Source of the DNA: a virus
IMG/VR virus record: IMGVR_UViG_3300035183_000469
Span: 1 to 64,000 of that record
Length of the DNA stretch: 64,000 nucleotides
Strand: one strand, 5' to 3'
Each line of letters begins with the position of its first letter. The stretch's first letter is position 1. The notes under the pieces were generated by a model. It searched no databases. It saw only the letters and a program-made list of their open reading frames with translations, and had not been told where the DNA came from. Shown here in pieces: positions 1,879-35,055 of the stretch. Position numbers and translations under genes: made by a program.

Positions 1879-4107
1879 TTATAGCTGATCTTTTTCTTTC
1901 TCTGTTGACATGGAGTCCATTAAACGCTCATCCAATGACTGCTCACGTTTTGCGTCCTGAACATTCTCAATACCCTCCTTGCGGATAATAGCGCTGCGAA
2001 TAACCGCATCAGCAGCAATCTTCCTGCCTTCAATCTCCGACTCGGCCGACCGTTGTGATGCCACGTCTTTCTGCCGTATCTTCTCTGCCTCTGATTGTGC
2101 CATCATCTCCATGTTACGAGATTCCTGCTCGGCACGCATAGCCTGCAACTGACGAATGGCATCAATACCGTTTTCGAGAATTTTTTCAGCTTCAATGGCT
2201 GACCCGGCATTGCTCATTTTAATGATCTCCTTAATCATGGTGGCATCCGTGGCCAGTACCTGTTGACCCATAGACATGTAAAAATTCATCTTCTGCTGGT
2301 CGTCGTATGAATTGCGGCAGAAAACACCATAATCACACAACGAAAACTCTTCGGCGATCTGTAAAATATTCAGCCCCATATCGCCCATAACAAAATTACG
2401 GACATCATTTTCCTTCCACACAATCTTCATCGCTTCGGCTGTTTTCTGTAACGCCTGCTCAATAACCTTAGACATCACAAAGTAAATAGGCTGCAACACG
2501 GTGTTCCCCTGTACCAGATTGCTTTCCGTCGCCCGAGCCGTCTGATACGGGTTGGTGAACCCAAGCTGATCCGGCGACACCCCGGTCATCCGAGCCGCTG
2601 TCTGTTCAATCATAACCTTAAACTGCATCAGATTGATGATGGTACTTGACATACCAAAATCAACCTGCTGATAATCGTCATGGTATCCCGATGGCGGCGC
2701 CCCCTCCTTCCTCTGTTTGACGATAAACCCCTGCACCTTCATCTGATACGCCAGTTCGGTCAGCTTATCTTCCGGACGCCCACCATCTCCAACGGGGATG
2801 TCGTCAAGGTACACTGTGATCGCCTTGCCGCCCGCCTGGTTGACAGCAAACTCAATGTGCGACATGATGATGTTATACAGTATCTGCAACTGATAGCATT
2901 TGGAATACAACCCAAAACGGGTAAATGCCCCGAAATAATCTACCTGTGCCTTCCGGTAATTGCCGGCATCGCGCAGGATATTTTTCTTACGTTGCATCTT
3001 ACAATAAACATCGGCGCCAATTTTAACCCCCTCATACACATCCATGATGTCCACCGACTCGGTGTAACTGCCATCCTCAGACGAAACAGGCTCACCGGTC
3101 GCTTCATTGAACTCGGAAGGAAACGCCACATTGTTTCTTGCTAAAAAATGACCAGACAACACCCTAATCTTGACTCCACTATTGTCTGTGTAATAATACT
3201 TACACGAAGAAGTGTTTCCGAAAAAGCTGTCTCCATACAGGATAAAATTGTTGACGTTGTCCTTGACCTTCTTCTTGTCCTCATCGGTCATGTAATACTC
3301 GTACTCATACAGGACATCCTGGAGATTCATATATCTCTCCTCAAACCCGTACTGCGGATGCCAGTCCTGACCAATGATTGAATAGACAAATTCCTGCGAC
3401 GGACGGTCAATAATCATCACACGCGGATCGCGCCGCATCGGCACCGGGTCACCGTCAATGTACTCGATACACCCAAACGTGTCGCCGGTAATAATAAGGT
3501 CGTACAACATCTGCGCAAACTGACTCTGCACATTATGCTTCGCAAGAATATATTTTAATCCATCGGTAACGGTCTTTTCTTGAAGGTCACGATAGTCATA
3601 TGACATGAACGTCTTAATGTCATCGGGCAACACCTCCATACGCTCGTCCAGCGTCAACTCCATCCCGGTCGCTTCCTGAAACTTATCCCAATAGGGCTTT
3701 ATCATTTTAAGAAACAACAACTCAGCCTCAAGATCAAGCCGCTCACTCACGGCATTGGAATTTACCTTATACGCAGAAAAAGCCAATGGCTGACTCTGAA
3801 ACTGACCTACGATATAGTTGATGATGGGATTCAGTAGCGGATAATTGGTGAACGTCATCGGCTTCACATCGCCAAACGTCGCCCAAACATATTTATACTC
3901 GTCTAAATCAAAAATATCATTGAACAGGTCGTAGTACCTCTGATAAAGTCTTCTGTGTGGACGCGTTAGCGCAATGGCATCATCGCTGCTGATATGGTCA
4001 AGCATCTGCCGAATCCACCGCTTACGATACTTTCGTTCAGGAACATAGTACATTGGAAGCGATGCCCCGCCTATGCCAATAGATGCCGTCTTATTTTCTG
4101 ATGCCAC
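1879..4107 (-). CDS. Portal protein
   Basis: 742 residues starting at GTG. The portal forms the dodecameric ring at the unique capsid vertex through which DNA enters and leaves. The call rests on length, on position after TerL, and on the family pattern: an N-terminal helical region with a conserved YPLLNPIINYIVGQF segment, a mixed core with an ITGDTFGCIEYIDG strand, a long helix region (YQTARATESN), and a charged coiled-coil tail from about residue 640 with many Glu, Gln and Arg. Size and style resemble crAss-like portals (inference). A TATTTTTG promoter element lies 6 bases upstream of the GTG, so the mRNA could be leaderless. The downstream secreted gene follows almost without a gap. Confidence 0.8.
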   Translation of the reverse strand: MASENKTASIGIGGASLPMYYVPERKYRKRWIRQMLDHISSDDAIALTRPHRRLYQRYYDLFNDIFDLDEYKYVWATFGDVKPMTFTNYPLLNPIINYIVGQFQSQPLAFSAYKVNSNAVSERLDLEAELLFLKMIKPYWDKFQEATGMELTLDERMEVLPDDIKTFMSYDYRDLQEKTVTDGLKYILAKHNVQSQFAQMLYDLIITGDTFGCIEYIDGDPVPMRRDPRVMIIDRPSQEFVYSIIGQDWHPQYGFEERYMNLQDVLYEYEYYMTDEDKKKVKDNVNNFILYGDSFFGNTSSCKYYYTDNSGVKIRVLSGHFLARNNVAFPSEFNEATGEPVSSEDGSYTESVDIMDVYEGVKIGADVYCKMQRKKNILRDAGNYRKAQVDYFGAFTRFGLYSKCYQLQILYNIIMSHIEFAVNQAGGKAITVYLDDIPVGDGGRPEDKLTELAYQMKVQGFIVKQRKEGAPPSGYHDDYQQVDFGMSSTIINLMQFKVMIEQTAARMTGVSPDQLGFTNPYQTARATESNLVQGNTVLQPIYFVMSKVIEQALQKTAEAMKIVWKENDVRNFVMGDMGLNILQIAEEFSLCDYGVFCRNSYDDQQKMNFYMSMGQQVLATDATMIKEIIKMSNAGSAIEAEKILENGIDAIRQLQAMRAEQESRNMEMMAQSEAEKIRQKDVASQRSAESEIEGRKIAADAVIRSAIIRKEGIENVQDAKREQSLDERLMDSMSTEKEKDQL

Positions 4108-4157
4108 GGTTCACAAAAATAGATACACAACAAATGTACTGAAATATCTTTGTCCAC
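4108..4157. promoter_or_regulatory. Divergent promoter region for portal and GT25 gene
   Basis: This 50-base gap holds two Bacteroidota-type -7 elements facing apart. TATTTTTG is read on the minus strand (4121 to 4114), 6 bases before the portal GTG. TATCTTTG is read on the plus strand (4145-4152), 5 bases before the ATG at 4158. The -33 TTG is weak for both. The short distances imply very short or absent leaders. Confidence 0.5.
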
Positions 4158-4751
4158 ATGGTTCATTGCATCCACTTCGCCGCCAGAACAGATCGTGAAC
4201 GTCTGTTCAAACAAGAGGCACAGGCACAAGGATTTGATTACCGCTTCTGGGAGCCGATACCGGCACACAAAACATGGATATCCGTCCGCCTGTCACATCA
4301 GCAGATTGTCCGACATGCGAAAGAAACAAAGATGCCGTATGTCATCATCATGGAAGATGACGTGCGGTTTACATGTAAAGGCGCCTATCAATATTACTTG
4401 TCAAAAAAACCGGATACATTTGATATTTATACCGCAGGAATCTACTTTGGAAAAATCAAAAATGGACGACTTGTATCCAGCTTCTCTGGGCTACAATGCT
4501 ACATGGTCAATGCGTGTTTCTATGATGCCTTTCTCAATATCAATACCGACCGGCACCATCTTGACCGCGTGCTTGGCACAGGAGGAACACGTGTCGAGGT
4601 CTGTTATCCTATGGCAGCGATACAATACACCACCTATTCAGACGTCGGAGGAAAATACCGCGACTACTCACGATACCTGAAAGACAAGCTGCTTCTCACC
4701 GAATCATTCATTGCAGCTTCCGATGCGACACAACATGAATTATACACCTGA
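4158..4751 (+). CDS. Glycosyltransferase family 25-like protein
   Basis: 197 residues. The N-terminus (IHFAARTDR followed by a helix and FDYRFWEP) and the motif PYVIIMEDDVRF at about residues 80-91 match the GT25 family of LPS-type glycosyltransferases, where the acidic pair in EDDV helps hold the metal and nucleotide sugar. The C-terminal GGTRVEVCYPMAA segment is also typical. It is shorter than bacterial GT25 enzymes (about 250 residues) but the core appears present. It likely transfers a sugar to a phage or host glycan. It lies alone on the plus strand between minus-strand genes and has its own promoter. Confidence 0.75.
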   Translation: MVHCIHFAARTDRERLFKQEAQAQGFDYRFWEPIPAHKTWISVRLSHQQIVRHAKETKMPYVIIMEDDVRFTCKGAYQYYLSKKPDTFDIYTAGIYFGKIKNGRLVSSFSGLQCYMVNACFYDAFLNINTDRHHLDRVLGTGGTRVEVCYPMAAIQYTTYSDVGGKYRDYSRYLKDKLLLTESFIAASDATQHELYT

Positions 4752-4849
4752 ATCTTAAAATACTTCGCCAGCAGATGCGAGCGTCCCTTTATCGGTTCAA
4801 ACGGAAACGGAATGGTTTCGTCCGTATAAATCCATTGTTAAAAACCACA

Positions 4850-5386
4850 TCATTTGCCGTTATTGCTACCCACCAGAATAACGTACACGCCAACAATGCC
4901 ATTTCTTTCCCCCTTCATCACCTTTACCATTACGTGTTTATCGTATCTCTTTGCAATATTTTTCGCTGCTAAAAGCACGCCGGCACGCACGCTTGCCACC
5001 TGGCTTATTTTTGCAACTGATACAAAAACACATTCACCGTCTTTCATCCCCATCAACAAGGACACCCACCGTCCATAAAGACGATGGCTAAACCGGTCTT
5101 CCGGATACGGCACCCCATACTCCACCTGATACTCTTTGTTCGGGTTGTATACCCATACCCGATACCCGCGCTGTCCGTTTTTGGTCTCCGGCCGAGACAC
5201 CACAGATATTCCAATGCGTGACGCTACAACACGAATATATTGCCGGCTTCGGTCTTTGATAAAAACGGACGCTCCATCCCCACCGCGTAATAATGACTCA
5301 AGAATACGCCTAACGGTGTTCCACTTAGGGTCACTCGCAGGATATGGAACATCATAATCAACTTGACCGGAAGCCTGCATGATCAT
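4850..5386 (-). CDS. Unknown protein with an internal duplication
   Basis: 178 residues. I do not recognise a family. The protein is built of two similar halves: residues about 12-85 begin YDVPYP and continue through a helix and a VFIKDRSRQYIRVVASRIG segment, and residues about 90-170 begin YGVPYP with a matching helix, a VFVSVAKISQVASVR segment and a final VYVILVG strand. Each half is predicted alpha/beta with Arg/Lys-rich strands, so nucleic-acid contact is possible but unproven. A TATTTTTG element sits 14 bases upstream on the minus strand. It converges with the GT25 gene. Confidence 0.6.
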   Translation of the reverse strand: MIMQASGQVDYDVPYPASDPKWNTVRRILESLLRGGDGASVFIKDRSRQYIRVVASRIGISVVSRPETKNGQRGYRVWVYNPNKEYQVEYGVPYPEDRFSHRLYGRWVSLLMGMKDGECVFVSVAKISQVASVRAGVLLAAKNIAKRYDKHVMVKVMKGERNGIVGVYVILVGSNNGK

Positions 5387-5637: not shown

Positions 5638-5832
5638 ATGAACAAGACAATCAACTACGACCGAATAATAAAATCAACGCAGTATCAAGATAAAAGGGAA
5701 AGCATTATGCGGGAAATAAATTCCCACAAAATATCCATCAATCCATTGGCTTTCAAAAAAAGTGTCTCTGAAAAATCAAAGCTTGCCAATCTAAAAGCCG
5801 CATGGAAAATGAAACAGCGAATTAAGACATAG
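5638..5832 (+). CDS. Small basic protein, uncertain
   Basis: 64 residues from an ATG at 5638, rich in Lys, Arg and Ser (about a quarter basic). It has no recognised domain. It follows the nested inverted repeats directly and stands alone. Composition is compatible with a nucleic-acid binding peptide, but a chance frame cannot be excluded. The rest of 5387-6228 shows no gene that I trust. Confidence 0.35.
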   Translation: MNKTINYDRIIKSTQYQDKRESIMREINSHKISINPLAFKKSVSEKSKLANLKAAWKMKQRIKT

Positions 5833-6024
5833 CAATCGCATTGCCATATGCAATAGCTGTGGACGCTGTATGCAGCTTGAAAGAACAGTTAAGCCGACTC
5901 AAGGCGAGGCGTATCCTGTTAAATGACGGAGATGGGTTTTTCTAAAACTTGTATTCCTTCCGTCAGCCAAACCGACGGCGAGAAACTCACCGGACGATGT
6001 GATGATGAACATGACGACGACAGA

Positions 6025-6090
6025 GGTCAGAAAAAAGAAGTTAGCATCCTTAAACCGGGGGGTAGGGGGGCTAACTTGTTTTTTCTGACC
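6025..6090. other. Long hairpin with G-rich loop
   Basis: 21-base arms at 6025-6045 and 6070-6090 pair with a single G/G mismatch. The stem reads GGTCAG, six A, one mismatch, then AAGTTAGC. The 24-base loop ends in two runs of six G. The next bases outside (AGA before, ACCTCT after) allow further pairing. An internal A6/T6 tract gives each strand a U-run, so a bidirectional terminator or a stable RNA are both possible. Confidence 0.6.
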
Positions 6091-6210
6091 ACCTCTGGCT
6101 CAAAATCTACCGTCCGATATGTAAAAAAAATAATTGCTGACTATCAACAGCTTATAGAATACAATCAGGTCATCATCACCCAACACGGATACATCAATAA
6201 CCATGTTACA

Positions 6211-6218
6211 TATTTTTG
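6211..6218 (+). promoter_or_regulatory. Bacteroidota -7 promoter element
   Basis: TATTTTTG matches TAnnTTTG and stands 10 bases before the ATG at 6229, the first gene of the three-gene plus-strand operon at 6229-7454. A good -33 TTG is not seen at the expected distance, so this is a partial match. Confidence 0.4.
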
Positions 6219-6228
6219 TTAAAACAAA

Positions 6229-6423
6229 ATGTATATGGAACACAGAACTCCTTGCTGTAATGCAGAGTATAAAAGAGTGTCTGACGGGGTATATGTATGT
6301 TCTTCCTGCAAAAAGAACGTAACCTCATCACTGTTGTCTGTTCTGAAAAAAAAATGGAACATTAAAACAAAATCCATCAACCGTGGGATTAAAAAAGAGC
6401 CGTTTTCAAATCAATTTGAATAA
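6229..6423 (+). CDS. Small zinc-ribbon protein
   Basis: 64 residues. Two cysteine pairs (PCCNAEY near residue 9 and VCSSCKKN near residue 24) are spaced like a zinc ribbon, followed by a lysine-rich tail. No enzymatic domain is present, so a nucleic-acid or protein adaptor is likely. Alternative in-frame ATG is at 6235. Its 3' end overlaps the next gene by 41 bases. Confidence 0.6.
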   Translation: MYMEHRTPCCNAEYKRVSDGVYVCSSCKKNVTSSLLSVLKKKWNIKTKSINRGIKKEPFSNQFE

Positions 6424-6865
6424 CGTGGATATACCCCGTCTGCGTGCCACGAAAACAGACGTTGAGTTTACCACCGAGTTGCATCTGATGCTTTTTGGCA
6501 AGGATGATACCATGGACTATTGGAAAAGTTATGTGGACACCTGGTTCAAATACTATGCACGGGAGAAAGGCACCGCCCCAAGTTTCTCCAATGGTGAAAC
6601 GACTGCGCTCAAACGGCTTATGTGCAAGATACGCAACAAGTGTCGCGAGGCAAACATTGAATGGGGCAAAGACTCATCGGTGGATATGCTCACTATTTTT
6701 CTGAATCATATCAAAACACTGAATCCGTGGGTATATGACCACCTAACCCTAAAAAACATTGACAGTCAATTCGATATTATCTATGCTGCCGCAAAAAGAA
6801 AATCTTCATCCGAAAAAAACAGAATCATTAACCAGGAAATTGAGAGTCGCTTTGGAACAATGTGA
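6383..6865 (+). CDS. Unknown helical protein
   Basis: 160 residues from a GTG at 6383. Mostly alpha-helical with aromatic-rich helices (MDYWKSYVDTWFKYY) and a charged middle, resembling small replication-module proteins of Bacteroidota phages and mobile elements, but no domain is identified. It overlaps the zinc-ribbon gene upstream by 41 bases and the next gene downstream by about 83-107 bases, which is long for two real genes, yet both frames have natural protein composition. Confidence 0.55.
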   Translation: MGLKKSRFQINLNNVDIPRLRATKTDVEFTTELHLMLFGKDDTMDYWKSYVDTWFKYYAREKGTAPSFSNGETTALKRLMCKIRNKCREANIEWGKDSSVDMLTIFLNHIKTLNPWVYDHLTLKNIDSQFDIIYAAAKRKSSSEKNRIINQEIESRFGTM

Positions 6866-7454
6866 TGTCCGGTCGCTGGTAGAAATACGGTCATCGTTGT
6901 CTGCACGATACATCTTACAGAGTGACGAGCCGACGCTGTATTCGATCAAAAAGAAGGTGCCTGTCGGCGACGTCGCACGTGTTGTCGCATCCGTTGCCAG
7001 GACGTGGTTAGAGAACAACGGATTAAAAGGGGATGCCACGCCGGCCGAGTTTGCCTATCAGATTCTCACCGGCGAGCCGACGTGGACGATGTTGGATGTG
7101 GTTCATTTCTTTGACTTCATCAGCAGCCATCAGCACGACGAGCGTCTGAAAGTGTTTGGAGACCGCATCACGCCGTTGCGTCTGATGGAGATGAAGGTCG
7201 TTTATGAAGAATATAAGGCCGAGGAACGGGAGCGGATATATCATGAGCATAAGACAGGCGACGTCATCACCGCCCGTGAGTCTATGGCGCAAGACCTGAA
7301 AAGCATCATGGGCAGAGAGTTTGAGTCGGTCATGATTCGCAATCAAGACAAGGCCATTCCAAAAGGAAACAGCGGCGAATCTTTTTTCCGTAATATGGAA
7401 AAAGAAATCACTTCGTCATTCCGTATCGGCGACGAAGTAAATCCTGCCAAATAA
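6783..7454 (+). CDS. Unknown helical protein, last gene of the small plus operon
   Basis: 223 residues from the ATG at 6783; an ATG at 6759 in frame would give 231. The protein is helical with a charged C-terminal half and no recognised catalytic motif. It shares an operon with the zinc-ribbon and 160-residue genes. Its 3' end runs 47 bases into the 3' end of the convergent terminase gene, with no terminator between them. Function is unknown; a link to replication or packaging is only suggested by position. Confidence 0.6.
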   Translation: MLPQKENLHPKKTESLTRKLRVALEQCDVRSLVEIRSSLSARYILQSDEPTLYSIKKKVPVGDVARVVASVARTWLENNGLKGDATPAEFAYQILTGEPTWTMLDVVHFFDFISSHQHDERLKVFGDRITPLRLMEMKVVYEEYKAEERERIYHEHKTGDVITARESMAQDLKSIMGREFESVMIRNQDKAIPKGNSGESFFRNMEKEITSSFRIGDEVNPAK

Positions 7455-9471
7455 ACTTCCCCTTGTGTGGTGATGTAAAGTTCGGTGCCGGCTTGCCGTT
7501 TTTTATCCCGAAAGAAAAACTGGTGATTGGCTTGCGTACATGCCGGTCGTCCGGCAATACGTTGGATTGTATCAGGTCTTCATTGCTCATCACCTTCGTC
7601 GCAGGACGATAGCTCATGTCCTGGTCATACAACAGGCAGATGCGAAACGCCGAGATAATGTCTGTGTTGGTGTTTGGTCGCCCGCAGATGGCAAGCTGAT
7701 TCAGAAACTGTATGTCGTACACGTTGTTTATCTCGGGAGACGAGATGAAGTCATTCAGCTTTAGGTCGGTTATGGCAATCTCTGAACCCCGAACCTGATA
7801 GCCGAAGGCTTCGGCCGGACGTACTATTTTACCCATGACCAATGGATAGCGTTTCAGGTATCCCAGCGCATTTTTAGACTTAAAGAACTCGTAGGGTGGC
7901 GATAGCTCTGCCTGATTGACGTTCATCTCAAAGGCGACCTCTGCCGAATAGTAACGAGCCGCCTTTAACACATCACTGTAAAACTCCCGCAGGCTGGGCG
8001 GACGGTACCAATACGTCATCACCGGTATCTTACAAGGCTGGTCGGCGCCGATGTAACGGCGATAGACCACGATGGCGCCCTTTGATGGCGACGAGTTCGT
8101 CTTGTCTTTCTGATAGTCATCCACGCCAATGATGTCGGCCTGACGGTACAGATGATTGATCGGATGGAGTGTGATATGAAAACGTCCGGACTGGTCTGGG
8201 ACAAAACGGATGCCGCCGGTGACCTTATATGCCTCCCCGTCATCTTCTTCGAGCCGTCCGTGCTGAACAAAGTTTTTGGCCATCGGGTCATCGGATATTG
8301 CCCGAATCCGTTCATTGACTCTGATGATATCCAATGACCCTTCCGTGGTGACAATGAACATATCACCCGGCGTGCGCGGATGGTTCTGCATGTACTTATA
8401 CAAGTCTGTTTTGTCCGGCAACTGGCTCAATAGCTGTATATGGTGGTCTATATCTTCACTGGCCTCCTGTTCGAGCGACTCGCCCGTTGTAAAGTCAAAT
8501 GCATAATGTCCGTCTTTATTTTGTTTAGACACATAATGCCATTTGGTGTCAGGGATAAAGAACGGACGCAGGTTGAAGGCTTCCGGCTCATACCACATTA
8601 CCTCATAGTCTGCCGTCGGGTTATTGATTTTATCAGAGGTGCCGGCCAGGATGATGATGCCGTTCTGCCGCCCTGCCTCCTGAACACAATCCACCGATTC
8701 CCAATAGGCCTGACGCAGCGTCGGCTTACGAGAAAACTCACCCACCTCGTCAATGAGCAGCGTCTTGAGCCACGATCCCTTTAGCACGCCGGCTTTGGTG
8801 AAAATCTTCTTAAACAGAATAGACTGACTTCCGCCGACAACCTCATTGCCCATCTCGTCCTTGTGGATAAACCCAAACTGCATCTGCTCGGCATTGTCGT
8901 AGAGCATATTTTGATATATCTCTTTGGGAAGGTATTGAAGTCCGGTATACAGCTTTGGCATCGTAAGCAGTTGATATTTCTCCTCCGGCACGGCAAATGC
9001 CGACTGATTCTTTGGATAGAACAACAGGTCATGTGCCAGCCATGACATACATATATCTGTCACTCCGGCGCGCCTGAATTTGCCCACGATGCAGTTCACG
9101 CCATCCGCAAGACACCCCTCAAGATGCTCGGAAAACTCATGGTCAAAACGACGATACAGAGGCAGCGCGACGATTTTATTGGCAGATACGCGTCCGTCAA
9201 ACACAAACGGCTGACGGCTGATCTTCCAAAAGTTGAGATGGAAAAAATACTTGCCGCTTATTTTACTGTGTCCTGGCGGCTGGTATCCGTTCAGACACCA
9301 GTCCCAAACCTGATTCCAATAGTCATCATACGACTTACTTTCCGGGTCGAGGTTCGGGATGCCATCGGTGAGGATCGGCTGATAGGCACGATGCGGCGTC
9401 GCCGGTAAGGGCGGCGGCAACGGCGGCGGCGACGGACGCTCCCGCTTTCTGCGAGCCATTCGCTTGGTCAT
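7408..9471 (-). CDS. terL: Terminase large subunit
   Basis: 687 residues. This is the ATP-driven packaging motor and nuclease. After a Pro/Arg-rich N-terminus, an atypical Walker A (GKFRRAGVTD, about residue 125) is followed by a Walker B (LLIDEVGEF, about 236-244) and a coupling segment IILAGTSD. The C-terminal RNase H-like nuclease shows the acidic residues expected: IIGVDDYQKD (about 446), VAFEMN (about 515) and NTDIISAFR (about 607). Length and motif order match TerL. It overlaps the upstream gene by 4 bases (ATGA), indicating translational coupling, and is followed by the portal across the plus-strand island. Confidence 0.93.
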   Translation of the reverse strand: MTKRMARRKRERPSPPPLPPPLPATPHRAYQPILTDGIPNLDPESKSYDDYWNQVWDWCLNGYQPPGHSKISGKYFFHLNFWKISRQPFVFDGRVSANKIVALPLYRRFDHEFSEHLEGCLADGVNCIVGKFRRAGVTDICMSWLAHDLLFYPKNQSAFAVPEEKYQLLTMPKLYTGLQYLPKEIYQNMLYDNAEQMQFGFIHKDEMGNEVVGGSQSILFKKIFTKAGVLKGSWLKTLLIDEVGEFSRKPTLRQAYWESVDCVQEAGRQNGIIILAGTSDKINNPTADYEVMWYEPEAFNLRPFFIPDTKWHYVSKQNKDGHYAFDFTTGESLEQEASEDIDHHIQLLSQLPDKTDLYKYMQNHPRTPGDMFIVTTEGSLDIIRVNERIRAISDDPMAKNFVQHGRLEEDDGEAYKVTGGIRFVPDQSGRFHITLHPINHLYRQADIIGVDDYQKDKTNSSPSKGAIVVYRRYIGADQPCKIPVMTYWYRPPSLREFYSDVLKAARYYSAEVAFEMNVNQAELSPPYEFFKSKNALGYLKRYPLVMGKIVRPAEAFGYQVRGSEIAITDLKLNDFISSPEINNVYDIQFLNQLAICGRPNTNTDIISAFRICLLYDQDMSYRPATKVMSNEDLIQSNVLPDDRHVRKPITSFSFGIKNGKPAPNFTSPHKGKFIWQDLLRRRYGMTK

Positions 9472-10019
9472 TGGGCGATAAATTTCTTTTCAGCAAACGA
9501 CAGTGTCTTGCCGGCACGGACGCCGGTGATGGCATCCTCACGTTCTACCTTGGCAAAGACAATCTCCTTTAAGGTGGTTTTCATGTCGGTCAGTGTCTTG
9601 AGTGTCTTTCCCGCCTTTTCGAGTAATTCAATGGATTCGGCAGACACCTCTGTTTCGTTGAAGAACCGGGCAATTTCGGCACATTTCTCTTCGAGGGCAT
9701 AGTAGTTATTGAAGTCGGCATCCCGTTGTAGCTGGTCATAAGCATCCATCGCCTCACGCACGACAGGCGTGTCCAGCAGCCGGCTGTCAAATGCGGCGCC
9801 ATATAAAATATCTATGGCTTTTTCGAGGCGGTCTTTCTGCGGATAATGACGCAGGGGGCTTCGGTAGTCGCACACCAGCGACACGAACCGGAAGGCGGTA
9901 TCGCCGAGATGCTCGTCTGCAAGCAGCCGTTCAAACGGCGGGTATAGCATCGCCGCCTCCCGATTCAGGCGGATGCCATTGCCATTTCGTGAAACAATAT
10001 CAAAAAACATAGCACGCAA
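9468..10019 (-). CDS. Unknown helical protein upstream of TerL
   Basis: 183 residues, almost all alpha-helix with heptad-like charged segments from about residue 90 (EEKCAEIARFFNETE). No recognised domain. The position immediately before TerL, with a 4-base ATGA overlap, is the classic place for a small terminase subunit or a packaging accessory, but no DNA-binding helix-turn-helix is obvious, so this remains a positional guess. Confidence 0.7.
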   Translation of the reverse strand: MRAMFFDIVSRNGNGIRLNREAAMLYPPFERLLADEHLGDTAFRFVSLVCDYRSPLRHYPQKDRLEKAIDILYGAAFDSRLLDTPVVREAMDAYDQLQRDADFNNYYALEEKCAEIARFFNETEVSAESIELLEKAGKTLKTLTDMKTTLKEIVFAKVEREDAITGVRAGKTLSFAEKKFIAQ

Positions 10020-27254: not shown

Positions 27255-27590
27255 ATGTCAAATAGAAAACTAAACGACCCTTTTGCCTATGTGCTGTTAG
27301 CGGTAATGATTTCAGATGTAGTGATTTCAGCGGTAGTGCTTTTAACTTGTGGAACTCGATTGAAAAATGGCGTTGTTGTTGATAAATGGCACGAGGAAGC
27401 AAGAATTGAATCATACACGTATTACAACTTTATACTAAAAATGCGAATGTCTGGAACTCGTTTGGATGATGAGGATTTTGTATTAATAGTAAAAGGTTTT
27501 AATGGTAAAGACACGGTTAAACAACGTTTTGAAGTGTCTAAAACGGATTATGAAAATATAAATATTGGCGATTATGTCTCCTTTCCATAG
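27255..27590 (+). CDS. Small membrane protein, cassette-like
   Basis: 111 residues. Residues about 10-33 form one hydrophobic segment (FAYVLLAVMISDVVISAVVLL) followed by a soluble, beta-rich part. It is AT-rich unlike the flanking phage genes. It ends 6 bases before the first attC-like site and has no promoter of its own in the 40 bases after the terminator. Typical of an integron-type cassette gene of unknown function. Confidence 0.55.
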   Translation: MSNRKLNDPFAYVLLAVMISDVVISAVVLLTCGTRLKNGVVVDKWHEEARIESYTYYNFILKMRMSGTRLDDEDFVLIVKGFNGKDTVKQRFEVSKTDYENINIGDYVSFP

Positions 27591-27596
27591 CATTAC

Positions 27597-27729
27597 CTCT
27601 AACGGTTCTGGTATTGCCGAATGTGGGAGATACTTGCACAACAGCCCATCAGAAGGATAAAAGTTTAATGTAGTATAATTGCTTATTAGTGGAACGTCAG
27701 CCCCCACTTTTAGCAATACATTGTTAGTG
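27597..27729 (+). other. attC-like recombination site
   Basis: 133 bases with the layout of a long attC site. CTCTAAC (27597-27603) pairs with GTTAGTG (27723-27729) apart from one base, GTATTGC (27611-27617) with GCAATAC (27713-27719) perfectly, and GTGGG (27623-27627) with CCCAC (27703-27707). The central 75 bases form the variable loop. It starts 7 bases after a stop codon and is followed 25 bases later by the next gene, as in integron arrays. Confidence 0.6.
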
Positions 27730-27754
27730 GCTGGCATCTTTAAACAACAAACCT

Positions 27755-28057
27755 ATGTACAAAGAACAAATTAAAGAAAAAGGCTCCGATATGCCTACTG
27801 CAATTCATCAACCCGAATTGAATGTAATTATCGAAAGGCTGGCAAATGCCGTTAATCGTTATGATGATATTTTATCTGAAACAAAGCATAAACTGCAAAC
27901 GATTAAAAAGTATGATGAGCCTGCAACATCAAATGAAGTTTCAAAAGAAACAGAGCCTGATAGTTTAATCGAAGAAATTCATTTTTTGCTATTTAAGTTA
28001 AATGATTTGAATGAAAGGGCAGAAGCCAATTTAAGACATTTGAGAGAAATTGTTTAG
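27755..28057 (+). CDS. Coiled-coil protein, cassette-like
   Basis: 100 residues, almost all helix with Leu/Ile heptads (LNVIIERLANAVNRYDDILSETKHKL and a second segment near the end). No catalytic residues. It starts 25 bases after an attC-like site and ends inside a second inverted-repeat element. Cassette proteins of this type are often unknown. Confidence 0.55.
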   Translation: MYKEQIKEKGSDMPTAIHQPELNVIIERLANAVNRYDDILSETKHKLQTIKKYDEPATSNEVSKETEPDSLIEEIHFLLFKLNDLNERAEANLRHLREIV

Positions 28058-28066
28058 CATTTTCGG

Positions 28067-28117
28067 GTTATGTGGGATGCTACTCATTCGGAGCAGTGTC
28101 CCACGTTTGCCGATAAC
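28067..28117 (+). other. Short inverted-repeat element, degenerate attC-like
   Basis: GTTAT then GTGGGA (28067-28077) face TCCCAC (28099-28104) and ATAAC (28113-28117). The GTGGG core is shared with the first attC-like site. At 51 bases it is shorter than the two clear sites. Confidence 0.4.
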
Positions 28118-28130
28118 AGAAATTAATGAG

Positions 28131-28490
28131 ATGAAAATCAATGCTCCTGACGCATATACTTTGTTGCCTACTGTGCTTTTGGATGATAATGGTTATCCAA
28201 CTGATGAATGGCTGCAATATCTTAAAACCTATAAGCCAGATGAAAGTTTGCCTTTACTTACATTTGTTAAAACGGTTCTGGTTGACGGATGGTATATGTC
28301 TGATTGGGGGTTTAAGCTAAGTAAGAAGTATAAAGGCAAATACAAACTTGAACTTTATACAGGTGGATGGAGTGGCAATGAAGAAATTATTGAAGCAATT
28401 ATGTCAAATATGTGGCTCACTAACTTCAAGATGAAATTTTTGATGTGGCGAACCGGAGGTCATTATTACTTTGAGTTGTCTGTCGGTTAG
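28131..28490 (+). CDS. Unknown protein, cassette-like
   Basis: 119 residues from the ATG at 28131, chosen because the longer frame from 28050 would run through the inverted-repeat element. An alpha/beta protein with aromatic segments (DGWYMSDWGFKLSKKY). No family known. The 72-base gap behind it has a CATTG/CAATG hairpin that may be a worn cassette boundary. Confidence 0.5.
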   Translation: MKINAPDAYTLLPTVLLDDNGYPTDEWLQYLKTYKPDESLPLLTFVKTVLVDGWYMSDWGFKLSKKYKGKYKLELYTGGWSGNEEIIEAIMSNMWLTNFKMKFLMWRTGGHYYFELSVG

Positions 28491-28562
28491 CATTGCTGCC
28501 AATGGTTTCGGGATTTGCGCATGTATTTTTTGCGGATTTAAAAACTTATTAAATAACACAAT

Positions 28563-28796
28563 ATGACAAGAGAAGAACTGATTGATTTTGCAAAATGGCT
28601 TGATGATGGCACAGACTATTTTGGCGAGAGTTACATTCAGGTGAAAACTGATGAATATATTAAAGCCAAAAATATTGTCGTTAAAGCCGATGTTAGCGGT
28701 TCGGTTTGCAATTACTGTAAAGGTAAAGGAAGAATATTTCATTGGGAGTTTGGTCAATTTGTTGAATGTGTGTGCTGTCGGGAAACCGACCGCTAA
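28563..28796 (+). CDS. Small zinc-ribbon protein, cassette-like
   Basis: 77 residues. CNYCKGKGRIFHW followed by CVCC near the C-terminus gives a DnaJ-like Cys-x2-Cys-x-Gly-x-Gly arrangement, a likely zinc site. Its stop lies inside the first bases of the second clear attC-like site, as is usual for cassette genes. Confidence 0.55.
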   Translation: MTREELIDFAKWLDDGTDYFGESYIQVKTDEYIKAKNIVVKADVSGSVCNYCKGKGRIFHWEFGQFVECVCCRETDR

Positions 28797-28924
28797 CGGG
28801 TCGGGTATTGCTGTCAGTAGCGGCAATAGGATTACAAATGTTCATAAAAGCACTAAAGTTAAATTGGAAAACGTAAGCTCAAATATTATTCGTCAGCCGC
28901 CATTGCAACAATCTGCTGTTATAC
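28792..28924 (+). other. Second attC-like recombination site
   Basis: 133 bases, the same length as the first site. GCTAAC (28792-28797) is opposed to GTTATAC (28918-28924), TATTGC to GCAACA, and GTAGCGGC to GCCGCCAT, with scattered mismatches as expected for attC. It spans the junction between a zinc-ribbon gene and the Dcm-type gene. Confidence 0.5.
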
Positions 28925-29811
28925 ACTCGCGCCTTTCACACGGCTCACTTTTTTCGGGAATAGGTGGTTTTGATTTGGCTGCACAATGGATGGGATGGAA
29001 CAATATTTTTCAGGTAGAGATTGACAAATTTTGTCAAAAGGTTTTAGAAAAAAATTTCCCGGACACAAAACGATATTCAGACATTAAAAAATTTAACGGA
29101 ACAGAATATGAAAACAAAATTGACATCCTCACCGGAGGGCTTCCTTGTCAACCATTTAGCACAGCCGGGAAGCGAAGAGGCAAAGATGATGACCGTTACC
29201 TCTGGGAAGAAATGCTTAGAGTTATTACAGAGGTTAAACCGACCTATGTTGTTGGCGAAAATGTTCCTGGCATCATCGGTCTGGCACTCGACACGGTGCT
29301 ATCTGACATGGAGAATCAGAACTACACCACAGAAACGTTTATTATTCCAGCTTGCGCCGTCAATGCTCCGCACCGAAGGGATAGAGTGTGGTTTATTGCT
29401 TACACCAACAGCATCAGATGGAAAGATGGAGAAAAAGAAATCGGAAAACCTTTACATAACGGAAACAGGAACGATGCGATTAAGGAACAAAGCTGGGAGC
29501 AGCAGCAATGCGGGACTGGTAAATCAAATTCATTTTTTGCCGACACCAACTGTGAACACAGGGAAGAATCTCTCGGAGGGGATAAATTGGGATATGAGGG
29601 AAAAGAAACACTACTTGGACGGGGTTTTTATGAACCGGATTGGAATAGAGAATGGACTGCGGTTGCATCCGAACTTTGTCGAGTGGATGATGGGCTACCC
29701 AAAGAATTGGACAAAGCTAAAAGAATAAAAGCGCTTGGAAACGCTATTGTCCCGCAGGTCGCCTATGAACTGTTTAAAGCAATAGATAGTGTCCACCGTC
29801 GTGTGGTATAA
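28903..29811 (+). CDS. DNA cytosine-5 methyltransferase
   Basis: About 302 residues from TTG 28903. This start lies within the attC-like site; the frame is open from 28651 but the earlier ATGs precede the site. Motifs of C5 methyltransferases are all present: HGSLFSGIGGFDLA (I), GGLPCQPFSTAG with the catalytic Cys (IV), VVGENVPG (VI), HRRDRVWFIAY (VIII), and ALGNAIVPQVAYELF (X). The end WTAVASELCRVDDGLP is that of phage Dcm-type enzymes. It likely protects phage DNA. No restriction partner adjoins it. A second open frame covers most of it (29108-29728). Confidence 0.88.
   Translation: MQQSAVIHSRLSHGSLFSGIGGFDLAAQWMGWNNIFQVEIDKFCQKVLEKNFPDTKRYSDIKKFNGTEYENKIDILTGGLPCQPFSTAGKRRGKDDDRYLWEEMLRVITEVKPTYVVGENVPGIIGLALDTVLSDMENQNYTTETFIIPACAVNAPHRRDRVWFIAYTNSIRWKDGEKEIGKPLHNGNRNDAIKEQSWEQQQCGTGKSNSFFADTNCEHREESLGGDKLGYEGKETLLGRGFYEPDWNREWTAVASELCRVDDGLPKELDKAKRIKALGNAIVPQVAYELFKAIDSVHRRVV
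29108..29728 (+). other. Overlapping open frame with methyltransferase-like signature
   Basis: 206 residues in another frame of the methyltransferase gene. Its sequence reads LLLTPTASDG, FLPTPTVNTG and LHPNFVEWMMGYPKNWT near the end, which are signatures I associate with the C-terminal parts of other phage Dcm-family proteins. The bases that give FVEWMMGYP here give LCRVDDGLP in the main frame. This may be an ancient frame relation between two families rather than a translated gene. Translation is not shown. Confidence 0.4.
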
Positions 29812-29862
29812 CAGCATCTGCTTTGCGAAGGCGTGGATTTTAACAACTAAATTTGATATAGT

Positions 29863-33382: not shown

Positions 33383-34222
33383 ATGAATGAATCACAAAAA
33401 GCCAGGATGGTCGAATGGTTTGACGACCATTGGTACATCATTACGATGGACAACGGGCAACGAGTGCCGATTGCATCGGTCACAACAAAACTCAGTGCAT
33501 CTCCCAAGCCATTTTTGGCGCGGTGGCGGGGAGATGTTGGCAACCGTGAAGCAGACAGGAGAATGAACGATGCCGCCGAACGTGGTAGCCGCATCCACTA
33601 TGCGTGGTATGTGCTGACCGGCGGCGGTATTATTCTGTATAATCCTCCGCTCCATCCGATCTATTCTATGGAAGATATTGCAATCATTGAGCGACAAAAC
33701 AATGGGAATATCTTTGTTCTGCAACATCAGGAGGAGATGTATGCGGTCTATAAGCTCAAGCAATGGCTTGATGTTGTAAAACCAAAGATCATAGAGAGAG
33801 AAAAAATTGTGTACTCGCTTTCGTTGAATGCTGCCGGAACGATGGATAACCTGATTGAGATTGAAGGCGGCGACTATACTGTAAACGGAAAGACACCGTT
33901 ATCCCTCCCGGGCGGCCTCTATGTTCTCGACCTTAAAACAGGGAATACGATTGATGAAGACGATGCACCTGCACAGGCGGCAGCATACGCACGGATGGAG
34001 ACAGAAATGTCAGGGCGCCAAATAACAGGGACGCTGATTGTACACACGTCTGCAAAGACTAAGACCGGCATCCCGGGTCTTGCCACTCTATACAGGAACG
34101 AAACGGAAATGGCCGAAGACTTTGATTATTACACGGCAGTTGCCGCCGTTTGGGAACGAAAGCTAAAGAAAGAAAAACCGGTAATGTTTGAGTTCCCGTC
34201 ACTGATACAACTTGATCAGTGA
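33383..34222 (+). CDS. PD-(D/E)XK nuclease, RecB/Cas4-like
   Basis: 279 residues. The nuclease core is seen as AERGSRIHYAWYV (helix with His), LNAAGTMDNLIEIEGG (catalytic Asp), and LYVLDLKTGNT (the D/E-x-K motif, about residue 184), followed by DAPAQAAAYARM, the QxxxY-type helix. This set is characteristic of phage exonucleases related to RecB. With the SSB-like gene just upstream it likely forms a recombination module. It lacks the four cysteines of an Fe-S Cas4. Confidence 0.82.
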   Translation: MNESQKARMVEWFDDHWYIITMDNGQRVPIASVTTKLSASPKPFLARWRGDVGNREADRRMNDAAERGSRIHYAWYVLTGGGIILYNPPLHPIYSMEDIAIIERQNNGNIFVLQHQEEMYAVYKLKQWLDVVKPKIIEREKIVYSLSLNAAGTMDNLIEIEGGDYTVNGKTPLSLPGGLYVLDLKTGNTIDEDDAPAQAAAYARMETEMSGRQITGTLIVHTSAKTKTGIPGLATLYRNETEMAEDFDYYTAVAAVWERKLKKEKPVMFEFPSLIQLDQ

Positions 34223-34386
34223 ATACAACGGTTCGTGGCTTTGTGTCTGTTTGCCTATTGAACATAGCACAAAATTGTTATTATACGCTGGCTGCGGTTA
34301 ATTAAAAAATAAACTCAATACGAAGTACCAAACAAAAGAATTAAATAAAAAGAAGAAGTGTAACTTAGAAATAAAATTGGCGAGCG
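34223..34386. other. Intergenic gap, AT-rich
   Basis: 164 bases without a gene. It contains TTGTTATTATACGCTGG near 34276, reminiscent of the right end of a cassette site, but no matching left end was found. It separates the recombination pair from the fourth methyltransferase. Confidence 0.3.
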
Positions 34387-35055
34387 ATGAATATAGATTA
34401 TGGGCAAGAGACATTGTTTGGGAAAAAAATAATCTCAACCATAGGATATAATGAACAGGAAATAATTCGTGACATCCTGTTTTTACATGCCTATGGAAAG
34501 CCGATTGACTGTGACCCTACTTTTTCAATCGGCAATTTTTACAAGAAAGGAATCCCAGAACCAAAGTGGAAATTTGATAAATACCCTCAAAGGGAAGATG
34601 TGGTGTCTGCTTCCTCTGATAACCTTCCGCTCGAAGATGGCAGTTGCAACGTAATCATGTTTGACCCGCCGTTTGTCATGAGTGGCGAAAACTATAATGA
34701 AACCAAAAGCGGGAGTGGCATCATTAGCAAGCGGTTCACAGCGTTCAAAACATTTGAAGAGTTGAAGCAGATGTATTCATCCAGCCTGAAAGAATTTCAT
34801 CGAATACTGAAAGACGGAGGCATTGTAATTTTTAAGTGCCAGGATGCTGTCGTATGCCAGAAAAATCATTTTACACATTGCTGGGTAATATATCAAGCAA
34901 TCCATCAAGGATTCTATCCAAAAGACATGTTCATCCTGTTTGCAAAAAACAGATTGAATGACGGGAGGAAGCAACAGCATGGACGAAAGTACCATAGCTA
35001 TTTTTTGGTATTTGAAAAGCGGATGTGTCCTGTTAATTATCTCGTTAAACCATAA
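34387..35055 (+). CDS. Class I methyltransferase, probable DNA methyltransferase
   Basis: 222 residues. The central catalytic motif is CNVIMFDPPFVMSG (about residue 97), followed by a helix, LKDGGIVIFKCQD and a C-terminal helix-strand pair with HSYFLVFEK. The N-terminal SAM motif I is not clear, so it may be short or divergent. DPPF/DPPY motifs are used by adenine and cytosine-N4 methyltransferases of DNA. It is the fourth such enzyme in 7 kb. Confidence 0.7.
   Translation: MNIDYGQETLFGKKIISTIGYNEQEIIRDILFLHAYGKPIDCDPTFSIGNFYKKGIPEPKWKFDKYPQREDVVSASSDNLPLEDGSCNVIMFDPPFVMSGENYNETKSGSGIISKRFTAFKTFEELKQMYSSSLKEFHRILKDGGIVIFKCQDAVVCQKNHFTHCWVIYQAIHQGFYPKDMFILFAKNRLNDGRKQQHGRKYHSYFLVFEKRMCPVNYLVKP

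Follow-up and report, generated by a model that had tools for sequence, protein, structure and literature searches.

The window analysed here comprises 64 kb of a 67,577-bp viral record (G000), which may itself be a fragment; portal and large-terminase genes in the record mark it as a tailed phage. On the plus strand lie, in order, a gene of unknown function assigned to phrog_6716 (gene 1, 27255–27590, 111 aa) with a homologue in another phage contig (L007), an attC-like site (S1, 27594–27732), the cassette gene of S1 (gene 2, 27755–28057, 100 aa), a strong simple hairpin 3′ of that gene (28063–28115), two further genes (gene 3, 28131–28490, 119 aa, unknown; gene 4, 28563–28796, 77 aa), a second attC-like site (S2, 28788–28927) and the cassette gene of S2, which encodes a C5-cytosine DNA methyltransferase (28864–29811; PF00145, E = 1.9e-46). 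A sequence-only reading of this DNA had drawn the two sites slightly shorter (27597–27729 and 28792–28924) and described them as attC-like, with nested complementary ends. We scored both strands of the 64-kb window with R1, a covariance model made from 36 sites of other viral contigs and none from the window. It returned exactly two confident matches, S1 (39.4 bits, E = 1.5e-5) and S2 (46.1 bits, E = 7.2e-7), in agreement with that description, and the third match reached only E = 7.9. These E-values, together with the covariation described below, exclude chance palindromes as the origin of S1 and S2. Rfam had no match anywhere in the window.

In both sites the R″ box ends in TAAC and the R′ box starts with GTTA. 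The boxes read ...CTCTAAC up to 27603 and GTTAGTG from 27723 in S1, and ...CGCTAAC up to 28797 and GTTATAC from 28918 in S2. Their spacing of 120–121 nt falls within the dominant 117–121-nt class of their relatives, and both sites belong to the longest site-length class. Each begins at a stop codon, as the sequence-only reading had noticed: a TAG 13 nt before the TAAC end in S1 and a TAA, that of gene 4, overlapping the TAAC box in S2. These stop-to-box distances are the two commonest in phage arrays. The left arm of S2 (GTATTGCTGTCAGTAGCGGCAAT) recurs in a site of a phage array (L074); the S2 arms contain several mismatches. With RNA parameters, the minimum-energy structure of S1 is the nested attC stem; with DNA energy parameters, the nested attC fold was not the minimum-energy structure for either S1 or S2.

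The genes around the sites retain cassette features to different degrees. The 5′ core of gene 1, GTTAGCGGTAATG (27296–27308), matches the reverse complement of its 3′ core, CATTACCTCTAAC (27591–27603), at 12 of 13 positions; when the window alone was scanned for matching cassette ends, this was one 12/13 pair among background pairs of 11/13, and the scan is only weakly informative. Because the expected 3′ core of gene 2 was sought and not found, the gene 2 unit is probably damaged. Gene 3 keeps the right half of an attC with the crossover point G/TTGCC at 28163, and it recurs as a cassette in other contigs: its relatives are 76–84% identical in unrelated viral contexts (L001; L002–L004) and 78–83% identical in Thermaurantimonas aggregans (L008) and a Bacteroidetes MAG contig (L009). 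Matches in L005 and L006 were weak and unrelated, and were set aside. For gene 4, a 5′ core read from the sequence, GTTAGCGGTTCGGTTT (about 28691), is similar to the reverse complement of the 3′ core GAAACCGACCGCTAAC (28782–28797). The methyltransferase reading frame is open right through S2; its start is likely the TTG at 28864, inside the attC loop, and its 3′ core is GTGGTATAAC (29803–29812). The closest viral homologue of this methyltransferase (L133) is 55% identical and has an 80.6-bit site immediately upstream, with a second such site 0.5 kb before that one.

The 67,577-bp record contains neither an IntI nor a recombinase of the family described below. With two R1 sites 1.2 kb apart, it meets the criterion for a phage CALIN, at least two attC sites within a few kilobases and no integrase in the record. 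Because a family recombinase is missing, genes 2 and 3 have no intact 3′ cores and the arms of S2 are mismatched, we read the window as an integrase-less, partly decayed cluster, part of which may be dead. A search for relatives of the window phage by way of its helicase gene found no close one.

The AT-richness that had been ascribed to the interval 27597–28924 is real and is not specific to it, since it extends over a broad block at 27–36 kb. Beside the cassettes, this block holds a cluster of four DNA methyltransferase-like genes, an HNH nuclease and an endolysin. At 34210–34300, ahead of another methyltransferase gene at 34387, there is a palindrome-like stretch (AACGGTTCGTGGCTTTGTG...CACAAAATTGTTATTATACG) that may be a decayed site. 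Both this palindrome and the hairpin at 28063–28115 were considered as further sites and rejected, as neither gave an R1 match; by the model, the hairpin lies outside the R1 site family.

In L001, the homologue of gene 3 is the last of about six small, hairpin-separated genes and is followed directly by a gene for a 267-aa tyrosine recombinase. At least 193 relatives of this recombinase are present in IMG/VR, and 80 of their loci were fetched. The array units share a simple plan, in which GTT and a core at the 5′ end are the reverse complement of a core ending in AAC at the 3′ end; the recombinase loci hold 295 such linked units, compared with about 9.5 in shuffled sequence. Linked cassettes lie upstream of the recombinase in 38 of the 46 loci that have at least 2 kb of sequence there, and downstream in 2 of 41. 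An attI-like motif, TAAC|TATnaTATATA, stands shortly before the recombinase (within 110 nt) in 44 of the 46 phage loci, which fulfils the integron requirement for an attI adjoining the recombinase at the point from which the array extends. Some of these loci are near-copies of each other, and the counts are not all independent. T4-type portals were found in 7 and terminase-family matches in 10 of 26 array-bearing contigs. The 84 phage cassette proteins are mostly shorter than 100 aa and unknown, the recognisable ones being DNA methyltransferases and an RNA ligase.

The lengths of the phage sites from AAC to GTT (L020–L099) peak at 41, 81–82 and 117–120 nt, and by eye the longer classes look like additions of roughly 39-nt loop units. 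The loop of the 41-nt class is nearly fixed (TCGTTTTAATG). In the 117–121-nt classes an ATG lies inside the attC loop in 26 of 42 cases, and 91 of 93 phage genes share the direction of the R1 strand (2 are opposite). Rearranged arrays bear on what moves. In four pairs (L032/L045, L032/L072, L032/L044 and L029/L053) the upstream site and gene are common to both arrays, which diverge right after the downstream AAC, one continuing into the attI-like site and the other into the next attC; breakpoints in the reverse sense were not seen among the rearranged arrays. Because the shared part is the upstream site with its gene and the divergence follows the AAC directly, the mobile unit in phages is, as judged from these sequences, an attC followed by its gene, cut at the TAAC box. 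The earlier reading had confined the cassettes to the interval between the two sites. The sites themselves stand; the downstream end of the interval does not, since the mobile unit is a site plus its downstream gene and the methyltransferase after S2 is therefore a cassette gene beyond it. The broader proposal, that the phage carries integron attC-type sites with methyltransferase cargo, is supported. It would have failed had there been no model score and no attC-flanked homologues of the cassettes elsewhere; we checked for both and found both.

The site alignment provides the structural evidence. Across the 36 phage sites, 91% of cells pair, versus 66% in shuffles; 16 of 23 pairs have changed on both sides in some sequence, and the covariation score is 0.587, versus 0.148 for shuffled alignments and at most 0.141 with the partner slid. 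The sites comprise two conserved helices, formed by the outer R and the inner L boxes and separated by an unpaired GGTTG/TT spacer, and thereby meet the criterion of an attC hairpin. The R box consensus RYYYAAC/GTTRRRY is not met: a TAAC/GTTA core is nearly invariant, and GTTRRRY fits only 2 of the 36 sites, so that this criterion fails for the class to which the window boxes, GTTAGTG and GTTATAC, belong. One position is a near-invariant wobble, with G opposite T in 33 of the 36 phage sites. Chromosomal sites have G–T at the same position in 72 of 73 and a covariation score of 0.696 versus 0.164, in an alignment fitted to the model. The R1 strand folds more stably than its complement in all 36 phage sites and in 22 of 26 chromosomal sites. 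In classical attC sites, an extrahelical G marks one strand (PMC2727003). By analogy, we infer that the fixed wobble may mark one strand in a parallel way. The wobble argues for a folded single strand; a single-stranded substrate remains an inference from indirect evidence only, namely the wobble and the strand-biased stability, and dyads recognised as double-stranded DNA would covary too.

The array recombinase is a tyrosine recombinase of about 265 aa with a conserved Arg/His/Arg/His/Tyr signature (GLRVSE, HTLRH, GH, IYTH). The integron integrase model TIGR02249 gave it 132–211 bits against a cut-off of 265, in a split match that skipped model positions about 181–239 (about 60 positions), while the control, IntI1 from R388, scored 507 bits without a break. 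As TIGR02249 also matches ordinary Xer proteins, only scores over the cut-off and the domain gap were used. Because of the score under the cut-off and the gap, we conclude from sequence comparison that this recombinase is not an IntI and lacks the IntI-specific region of the catalytic domain. Its best NCBIfam model is NF040815 (XerA / integron integrase), named 'site-specific tyrosine recombinase/integron integrase', and the nearest solved full-length structure is the XerA-like 4a8e, IntI4 aligning only over residues 13–176. In the tree, the phage recombinases form one clade (95/87) and two Xer-like proteins of the same Bacteroidota genome (G003) fall in a separate clade (100/98, long branches); the single IntI1 sits on a long branch and its placement is unsure. 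Among the cultured phages in the collection, no recombinase was more than 60% identical. The N-terminal halves of the phage recombinases vary (e.g. L076 and L083) and the catalytic halves stay very similar, which suggests domain swaps between phages. The link between recombinase and sites rests on neighbourhood, orientation and co-occurrence.

We then consider Bacteroidota chromosomes, represented by 395 genomes drawn from the phylum. R1 sites were present in 180 of the 395, which is probably a lower bound, since scoring was limited to eight candidates per genome. In 117 genomes there were recombinases related to the phage family (E <= 1e-40), and 102 genomes had both site and recombinase (odds ratio 17, p = 1.3e-28, shared ancestry uncorrected); 78 of the 278 genomes without a recombinase match at E <= 1e-40 still carry sites. 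Some chromosomal arrays exceed 30 kb, with a site about every 1–2 kb. Where a listed site lies no more than 50 kb from a recombinase, it points toward that recombinase (52 of 52 sites, in 31 arrays). Of the 61 longest genes between sites in 11 further chromosomal arrays, 60 are oriented against the R1 strand, and stop codons lie next to the site; a cruder count of gene direction (15:35) is superseded by this stricter one (1:60). Chromosomal arrays thus have the classical polarity, gene then attC, and we dropped the phage polarity as a general rule, as the chromosomal arrays show the opposite. The definition of a cassette as a gene followed by its attC is met in chromosomal arrays and not in phage arrays, and the window is of the phage kind. 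The orientation of the sites toward the recombinase is kept in phages and chromosomes alike; the gene alone differs in direction. In chromosomes the recombinase mostly runs the same way as the genes, against the site strand in 24 of 31 arrays.

Two bacterial loci deserve separate mention. The T. aggregans contig L008 carries a cassette of phage polarity, attC then gene, at 5903–6357 among seemingly ordinary host genes. A Bacteroidota array (L120, G107:C1:247600-262000) contains three identical group II introns with reverse transcriptase, near 3501–5241, 5670–7410 and 7968–9708, each close to an R1 site. Group IIC introns prefer attC sites, and the arrangement is reminiscent of that preference.

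Given these data, we consider it highly likely, on the evidence of sequence, that the window sites belong, as attC-type recombination sites, to an integron-like system found in Bacteroidota and their phages; recombination at them has not been directly observed and is only inferred. The most conservative alternative is that ordinary IntI-class cassettes were picked up by the phage from its host and that nothing here is new. attC sites and integrase-less clusters have indeed been published in phages, including a Polaribacter phage (PMC9892861), the general architecture of attC, attI and tyrosine recombinase is the same, and the nearest NCBIfam family bears 'integron integrase' in its name. We nevertheless regard this explanation as unlikely, as the viral record has no IntI match, the recombinases fall short of the TIGR02249 cut-off and leave a gap of about 60 model positions that are occupied in IntI1, GTTRRRY at R′ is confined to 2 of 36 sites, R1 has no match in the class 1 integron plasmid R388, and the polarity of the phage cassettes is flipped.

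The palindromes might instead have been kept as transcription terminators or translation-control hairpins between phage genes, given that they lie directly 3′ of stop codons and that many hold the start codon of the next gene. Such hairpins would not explain why rearranged arrays lose homology precisely at the TAAC box, why cassette ends match in reverse complement, why a fixed motif next to a recombinase closes the arrays or why chromosomal sites are opposite to genes in orientation, and we find this account very improbable. Slightly less credible still is a reading of the units as small, transposase-driven transposons bounded by terminal inverted repeats: the cassette ends are inverted repeats of about 8–16 bp, but the units are in tandem, one site is shared by neighbours and all point in a single orientation toward a tyrosine recombinase, and we noticed no transposase beside the arrays examined, without having made a systematic search.

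Returning to the integron-like system, the recombinase would bind one folded strand of the site, the R1 strand, and cut it at the AAC box, both binding and catalysis being inferred. Cassettes would be inserted at the attI, which adjoins the recombinase's own gene. With the flipped polarity in phages, the array and the recombinase gene downstream of it would be transcribed as a single unit, an expression logic that is likewise inferred, and the longest attC class often holds the start codon of its own gene. The window cassettes were probably mobilised, by inference, by the recombinase of another phage or of the host. With less assurance than for the nature of the sites, we think it probable that Bacteroidota possess an unrecognised integron class of their own, built on an Xer-like recombinase without the IntI-specific domain and present in roughly a third to half of the species; that T4-like phages carry a derived, flipped version in which array and recombinase are transcribed together as a single operon; and that phages and hosts have the site type in common and keep largely separate cassette pools. 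If this is true, a cassette-exchange system apparently overlooked by standard integron surveys exists in a major phylum and its viruses and would let them collect and swap small genes, the IntI-specific domain is dispensable for exchanging cassettes at hairpin sites, and cassette polarity has been altered in phages. It would then also be possible to test directly whether methyltransferases and other small accessory genes spread from phage to phage.

The system is apparently both widespread and undescribed. Integrons are regarded as rare in Bacteroidota; a 2022 survey (PMC9024848) named one complete integron within Bacteroidetes proper, in Salinibacter. Our search of the open-access literature, with preprints and most subscription journals outside its scope, turned up neither a description of this class of recombinase and sites nor one of phage cassettes with flipped genes. 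With IntI integrons (class 1, Vibrio and other chromosomal ones) it shares tandem cassettes, hairpin attC sites with the R″/L″...L′/R′ layout and TAAC/GTTA boxes, an attI beside a tyrosine recombinase, a stop codon at the site and small, mostly unknown genes. It differs in its recombinase without the IntI-specific region, an R′ that is rarely GTTRRRY, another attI-like motif, phage genes flipped relative to attC and a chromosomal recombinase usually co-directional with the genes. In Treponema integrons (PMC3607928) the recombinase is also transcribed toward attI and in the cassette-gene direction, as in most chromosomal arrays here; those integrons, however, use an IntI, belong to a different phylum and have no flipped phage cassettes reported. 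XerC, XerD and XerA resemble the family in their short layout without the IntI insertion, with the XerA-like 4a8e as the nearest full-length structure, whereas the family adjoins cassette arrays and an attI-like site, and the Xer-like proteins of Bacteroidota (G003) form a separate clade. The closest precedent is the work of Qi et al. 2023 (PMC9892861), who described attC clusters without integrase and methyltransferase cassettes in phages, one of them a Bacteroidota (Polaribacter) phage, and found that IntI1 recombined 5 of 6 tested sites. Polaribacter phage P12002L, expected to be a positive control, had no R1 match, and because of this we take its sites to be of another kind. Our phages have attC-type sites and methyltransferase cassettes in common with those clusters; what sets the present arrays apart is that a dedicated recombinase family and an attI-like site accompany them, in many uncultured phages.
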